Positions 59,719 through 60,558 of a DNA stretch of 64,000 bases are shown here, piece after piece. Positions within the stretch are counted from its first letter, which is position 1. The number at the start of each line of letters is the position of its first letter. A program made the position numbers and the translations under genes. The DNA comes from Halobellus captivus (GTDB lineage: Archaea; Halobacteriota; Halobacteria; Halobacteriales; Haloferacaceae). Below the pieces are notes generated by a model that made no database searches, was not told the DNA's origin, and saw only the letters and a program-made list of their open reading frames with translations. The DNA lies in assembly GCF_003697845.1 (NCBI RefSeq), contig NZ_RDQE01000008.1, positions 1 to 64,000 of the forward strand, read 5' to 3'.

Positions 59719-60558
59719 ATGCCCTCCACCAACCGACGAGCGTTCCTCGGAGCGAGCACGGTCCTCGGCCTCGGTACCCTGGCCGGTTTCAAGAACCTTC
59801 GGACGGCGGACGCCCGAACGGAGACTTCGGCGATCGAGAACGACGACTCGTTGGACGACTGGCTCGCGACCGCTAACGACCCACGGACTCCCCGGATCCG
59901 TGACTTCCGGTTCGACGACCCCCCGACGGTGTACCTCGACGTGTCGAACTCGAAGTCCTTCTCGCCGCCCGCGATCAAGGTCGCACCCGACACGACCGTG
60001 ACGTGGGAGTGGACCGGAACCGACCGCGAGCACAACGTCGTTGCCGCCGACGGGACGTTCGACAGCGGCGCGCCCGACGGCGAGGCGGGGACGACGTTCG
60101 AGTACACCTTCGAGACGGAGGGGACGTATCGGTACGTCAGCGAACCGCAGGCCGAGGCGGGGATGAAAGGCGTCGTGGTGGTCGAGTCCGCGCCGTCGAG
60201 CGGCTATCCCACCGTCGACGAGTGGTTGGTCGATACGAACGAGTACGACGGGAGTATCACCGACCGGACGGACGAGGACCTCGTCGAGATCACGACCGGG
60301 GCGGACGGCAACGGCGGGAACCTCGCGTTCGACCCGCACGCGGTGACGGTCTCGACCGAAACGACGATCCGGTGGTCGTGGACCGGCAGCGGGGGCGGAC
60401 ACGACGTCGCTTTCGAGGACGCCGACGTCGGAAGCGAGACGATCTACGCCGAGCCCGGCGTCCACTTCGAGCACACGTTCAACGAGACCGGCGTCTTCCG
60501 GTACGCCTGTCGACCCCATCGCGGGCTCGGCCACCGCGGCGCGATCGTCGTCGAGTAA
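59719..60558 (+). CDS. Tat-exported double-domain halocyanin-like protein with altered copper ligands
   Basis: 279 residues. The N-terminus NRRAFLGASTVLGLGTLAG is a Tat signal. Two halocyanin (cupredoxin) domains, about 45-155 and 160-279. The second has GHDV, YACRPHRGLGHRG: Cys and both His ligands, but the axial Met of plastocyanins is replaced by His. The first has REHNVVA and YRYVSEPQAEAGMKG: the Cys is Ser and the second His is Gln, so it should not bind type 1 copper. Electron-transfer role likely only for domain two. Single gene. Confidence 0.85.
   Translation: MPSTNRRAFLGASTVLGLGTLAGFKNLRTADARTETSAIENDDSLDDWLATANDPRTPRIRDFRFDDPPTVYLDVSNSKSFSPPAIKVAPDTTVTWEWTGTDREHNVVAADGTFDSGAPDGEAGTTFEYTFETEGTYRYVSEPQAEAGMKGVVVVESAPSSGYPTVDEWLVDTNEYDGSITDRTDEDLVEITTGADGNGGNLAFDPHAVTVSTETTIRWSWTGSGGGHDVAFEDADVGSETIYAEPGVHFEHTFNETGVFRYACRPHRGLGHRGAIVVE

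Follow-up and report, generated by a model that had tools for sequence, protein, structure and literature searches.

A double-domain halocyanin with serine at the first-domain copper-ligand cysteine position and histidine at the second-domain axial position

The gene, its product and its surroundings

The window, by which we mean the whole 64,000-nucleotide stretch of DNA analysed, carries a gene for a halocyanin with two tandem domains, here termed D1 and D2 (Table 1). The halocyanin-domain model TIGR03102 matches the open reading frame in two stretches, scoring 211.7 bits where the cut-off is 93.8, and the score of the plastocyanin model TIGR02656 stays under its curated cut-off (69.8 versus 87.85 bits). 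The source genome holds a single copy of the gene, together with seven weaker halocyanin-type matches elsewhere.

Table 1. Coordinates of the halocyanin gene, its domains and its ligand positions in the window
Feature	Position	Strand	Remark
Double-domain halocyanin ORF, 279 amino acids, ATG to stop	59719..60558	+	
Putative Tat-type signal region, N-R-R-A-F-L-G, without lipobox Cys	59719..59814	+	TIGR01409 weak, below cut-off
D1, residues 45–156, halocyanin fold without type 1 copper ligand set	59851..60186	+	
D1 His105, first-His position	60031..60033	+	Tyr, Gln, Ala etc. in relatives
D1 Ser141 (codon AGC) at copper-ligand Cys position	60139..60141	+	
D1 Gln144 at second ligand His position	60148..60150	+	
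D1 Met149, former axial Met	60163..60165	+	Kept in 73/75 subfamily members
D2, residues 166–279, halocyanin domain with Cys-His-His and axial His	60214..60555	+	
D2 His207, clade-specific	60337..60339	+	
D2 His228, equatorial ligand position	60400..60402	+	
D2 Cys264, thiolate ligand position	60508..60510	+	
D2 His267, equatorial ligand position	60517..60519	+	Invariant, 79/79
D2 His272 (CAC), axial Met position	60532..60534	+	

The N-terminal signal region scores 13.1 with TIGR01409, against a cut-off of 16.7, and its NRRAFLG motif is conserved across the orthologs. Most members of the subfamily described below have a lipobox cysteine after the signal (55 of the 79 rows of the tree), which is found in none of the 16 Halorubrum-clade proteins. 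This points to Halorubrum-clade halocyanins that are probably released instead of being lipid-anchored to the membrane.

An AlphaFold model was built using 74 window and locus sequences; its mean pLDDT is 86, with most of both domains above 90. The solved plastocyanin structure 1bxu superposes on one of the domains with 1.7 Å over 90 columns and a TM score of 0.87 by target length. Among the best 50 matches, two-domain copper enzymes give local matches only (TM ≤0.33 by query length), and because they match just locally, the modelled D1–D2 pair does not have the arrangement of a nitrite reductase or an oxidase.

In the window, the gene is flanked upstream by a DUF7847-like membrane protein and downstream, on the other strand, by a methyltransferase, with no sign of an operon at this locus. 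We considered a conserved Halorubrum operon and rejected it, since only near relatives have neighbours in common. At 7 loci from five other genera (L131, L164–L167, L169 and L175), a regulator of the HTH_20 type and a DUF7521 membrane protein are encoded divergently next to the gene, and a second halocyanin is often situated beyond these. An obligate partnership with copper nitrite reductase is rejected for the source genome, from which NirK is absent; the enzyme is also not associated with the gene, being present in 4/15 Halorubrum genomes that have the gene and in 11/37 that do not.

Copper-ligand positions of the two domains

We identified 14 further full-length Halorubrum orthologs with 69–84% identity and one more, L035, from a neighbouring genus. 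D2 of the window protein has the sequence G-H228-D ... C264-R-P-H267-R-G-L-G-H272. The equatorial set of His, Cys and His is present, with H228, C264 and H267 aligning one to one with plastocyanin, and H272 falls exactly on the axial Met of 1bxu. The canonical axial Met is absent from D2, and position 272 is occupied by His in 11 and by Gln in 4 (L012, L017, L020 and L035) of the 15 orthologs. The original prediction, made from the window alone, had read D2 as keeping its Cys and both His with a His in place of the axial Met, and it was right at every residue.

D1 has the sequence E-H105-N ... V-S141-E-P-Q144-A-E-A-G-M149. Here, the full type 1 ligand set is absent: Ser141 replaces the Cys and Gln144 replaces the second His, as had been predicted. 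The prediction did not mention that D1 retains its first His and its axial Met. The first His is a Tyr in seven orthologs, and the position of the second is taken by Gln, Glu, His or Tyr. With the thiolate gone, D1 is predicted to be unable to form a type 1 site.

The original prediction also proposed that the ligand positions be aligned in homologs. In 15/15 orthologs, D1 Ser141 and D2 H228, C264 and H267 are invariant. Because the orthologs share these residues and have either His or Gln at position 272, a sequencing error at the ligand codons is ruled out.

To what extent D1 can be called dead, as it had been, depends on what is meant. The label holds for the copper site, since a domain without a thiolate would have no type 1 site, but it is incomplete with regard to the domain as a whole. 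Median pairwise dN/dS values among 16 proteins are 0.165 for D1, 0.167 for D2 and 0.437 for the signal and linker regions. D1 is thus without copper ligands yet not decaying, because its dN/dS matches that of D2, and across genera it retains the strict motif V-S-E-P-x4-G-M. A pseudogene or a gene in decay is ruled out by the dN/dS of ∼0.17, and no frameshifts were seen in 16 Halorubrum orthologs. These observations raise the question of why a copper-free cupredoxin domain remains under full selection.

Evolution of the axial position

When genome contigs were scanned with the single protein as query, only five loci were returned, all of them in Halorubrum. Searching with profiles instead, in 170 genomes from the family and 392 from the order, we collected 75 distinct two-domain members of the subfamily, which is separate on the tree from the double halocyanins with two intact sites. 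The tree comprises 79 rows, including the outgroup, and was calculated with the ligand columns excluded. All counts of changes given here are parsimony minima on this one tree, with 18 of 76 branches open owing to unresolved forks.

The axial residue of D2 is Met in 40 of the 75 members, Gln in 13, His in 12, Ala in 7 and Gly in 3. The equatorial ligands of D2 are almost invariant, with a minimum of 2 changes at H228, 1 at C264 and 0 at H267, against no fewer than 10 at axial position 272. In D1, the minima are 11 at position 105, 3 at S141, 21 at position 144 and 1 at M149. The replacement of the D1 Cys by Ser is a near-fixed signature, found in 72/75 subfamily members. Read for independent Cys-to-Ser losses, the serine codon families (AGY versus TCN) give 5 changes, which a two-step Ser-to-Ser route may also account for. 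Judged by these alignments, the ligand changes are a trait of a subfamily with repeated axial swaps and not the oddity of one protein.

Two positions of D2 vary along with the axial residue. Position 207 is His in 12/12 axial-His members and in 3/13 axial-Gln members, and Pro in 38/40 axial-Met members. Position 229 (60403–60405), next to the first His, is usually Asn and is Asp in 8/12 axial-His members. It is possible that both represent second-sphere co-changes with the axial state, an association that is confounded by shared ancestry.

In a sister clade (L023, L024, L025, L038 and L039), the Cys is absent from both domains and the first His of D2 is lost; its members retain both Met residues and full-length open reading frames. 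Two paralogs that differ in the axial residue, Gln in one and Ala in the other, are present in each of three genomes from a single genus (G123, G125 and G127; L040–L042; L052, L053 and L056). A Halorubrum-type copy with axial His, broken by an in-frame stop, is situated in a genome of another family (L163; G285:C1:69400-73000) and looks like a past transfer.

To place the axial residue among haloarchaeal cupredoxins, we scanned the 392 genomes of the order for the motif C-x-P-H-x3-G-[H/Q]-x-G. This procedure gave 72 matches; with the one in G195 set aside, 53 are in cupredoxin-like frames (25 His and 28 Gln) and 18 outside such frames. The Met version of the motif matches 408 times in 60 family genomes, or 6.8 per genome. 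Axial His or Gln is found at ∼2% of such sites, a rough estimate that combines two different samples.

The axial His/Gln matches belong to several unrelated groups, among them single-domain halocyanins (CEPHVNMGQKG), multi-domain proteins and non-halocyanin cupredoxins (CIPHEAAGHVG and CAPHEIFGHVG). The multi-domain proteins L093 and L095 have three or four tandem halocyanin domains with axial Gln (ECQPHAAxGQLG). Axial-His non-halocyanin cupredoxins occur in several haloarchaeal families (CxPHExFGHxG and CIPHEAAGHVG; L064, L065, L073–L075, L087, L106–L108 and L116), and their Met-to-His changes are apparently independent.

Proposed roles of the domains and comparison with known systems

On balance, we think it probable that D1 serves, without copper, as a scaffold or docking domain and that D2 is the sole copper site for electron transfer, tuned by axial swaps. 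The protein would be a Tat-exported two-domain halocyanin with copper roles divided between its domains. D1, having lost the Cys thiolate and with it type 1 copper, would remain as a folded unit that acts as scaffold or docking surface, and it is its conservation that suggests a docking role. The only copper would be bound by D2, in plane by His228, Cys264 and His267 and axially by His272, and the protein would act as a secreted single-copper carrier, with electron transfer via D2. We infer copper binding by D2, coordination by His272, the shift in potential and the roles as docking domain and electron carrier.

The axial residue would serve as the tuning point, at which Met, Gln, His, Ala and Gly are exchanged over a fixed equatorial set, and each exchange would set potential and geometry to suit local electron partners. 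The change of position 207 to His and of position 229 from Asn to Asp together with axial His is as a second-sphere adjustment would predict. That the axial His may shift the redox potential or the spectrum, as put forward in the original prediction, is plausible. The size of the shift in potential is not inferable, because in an engineered laccase the exchange of Met for His changes E0 by +14 mV, as against −99 mV for the exchange of Met for Gln (PMC6487685).

His272 might also point away from the copper or bind at high pH only, and the clades with axial Ala and axial Gly could indicate that the slot is tolerant rather than tuned. It is unlikely, in our estimate, that His272 is non-coordinating altogether, which would make D2 a normal blue site whose axial position is open or weak, and where the residue drifts because it is nearly unimportant. 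The presence of Ala and Gly at position 272 in other clades is in line with such a site, and so is the laccase Met-to-His variant, in which the modelled N is 4.7 Å from copper and E0 barely moves (PMC6487685). However, only five residue types are found among the 75 members, and the non-Met set consists mainly of Gln and His. The axial states are also stable within clades, and positions 207 and 229 shift with them, though here shared ancestry confounds the comparison.

We regard it as improbable that the His3Cys set of D2 no longer serves electron transfer and instead forms a type 2-like copper site, a zinc site or part of a copper-sequestering protein. Cys-His-His-His is a common zinc set, azurin M121H mixes type 1 and type 2-like character in a manner that depends on pH, and a protein that has no lipobox and is probably released would suit a role of this kind. 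Nevertheless, within the clade His and Gln replace one another (in the four axial-Gln orthologs named above), and Gln is a natural axial ligand of blue copper, having replaced Met in stellacyanin and in the T1CuN of Thermus scotoductus NirK (PMC6400189). The D2 site should therefore function with either residue. That the whole protein is decaying, D1 first and D2 next, is very improbable: although the Cys and the first His are also gone from D2 in the sister clade, that clade retains full-length reading frames and the axial Met, and in the 16 orthologs both domains have the low dN/dS given above and the D2 equatorial ligands are invariant.

The reading that we prefer, a copper-free D1 beside a tuned D2, can be compared with several known proteins. 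The halocyanin of Natronomonas pharaonis has His/Cys/His/Met as copper ligands. It is like the protein described here in its fold and the H / C-x2-H-x4-axial spacing, and Tat-type export is putatively shared; unlike it, our protein has two domains, a D1 without Cys, an axial His in D2 and no lipobox. The Natronomonas protein is a lipid-anchored blue-copper protein, and halocyanin is the haloarchaeal one-electron carrier that replaces cytochrome c (PMC8305020). The double halocyanins L026–L029, from the same genus as our protein, also have two tandem TIGR03102-type domains, but they carry His-Cys-His-Met in both and form a deep, separate branch.

Among named proteins, the closest relative is a halocyanin encoded on plasmid pHME505 of Haloferax mediterranei (WP_231512968.1; locus L179:4025-4876), which is probably HcpA of PMC9240420. 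It is 54% identical over the full length and has the D1 Ser and the D2 Cys with both His, but it has Gly as axial residue, with Tyr and His at the two D1 His positions. Haloferax mediterranei is genetically workable.

The fold, the family, the idea of axial tuning and natural axial Gln are already known. In the literature searched, in which subscription journals are thinly covered, we found no natural axial-His type 1 site and no description of the subfamily, its D1 Ser signature or its axial series. What may be new, and we put this forward tentatively, is a natural Met/Gln/His/Ala/Gly series in one orthologous secreted halocyanin with a selected, copper-free partner domain and native His3Cys sites.

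Stellacyanin and the Thermus scotoductus T1CuN differ from our protein in that they have Gln rather than His, and they are not halocyanins. Putative native His3Cys sites appear to have counterparts described only in azurin M121H and laccase M460H, which also place an axial His in a Cys-His-His site but are engineered; the laccase has E0 values of 357 mV with Met, 371 mV with His, 258 mV with Gln and 409 mV with Ala (PMC6487685). Most of what is known of axial tuning in blue copper comes from such engineered mutants. If our interpretation is correct, the subfamily would be the natural counterpart of the classic mutagenesis series, with scaffold and equatorial ligands held fixed, and tuning could be tested with functional, selected proteins that include native axial-His, axial-Ala and axial-Gly sites.
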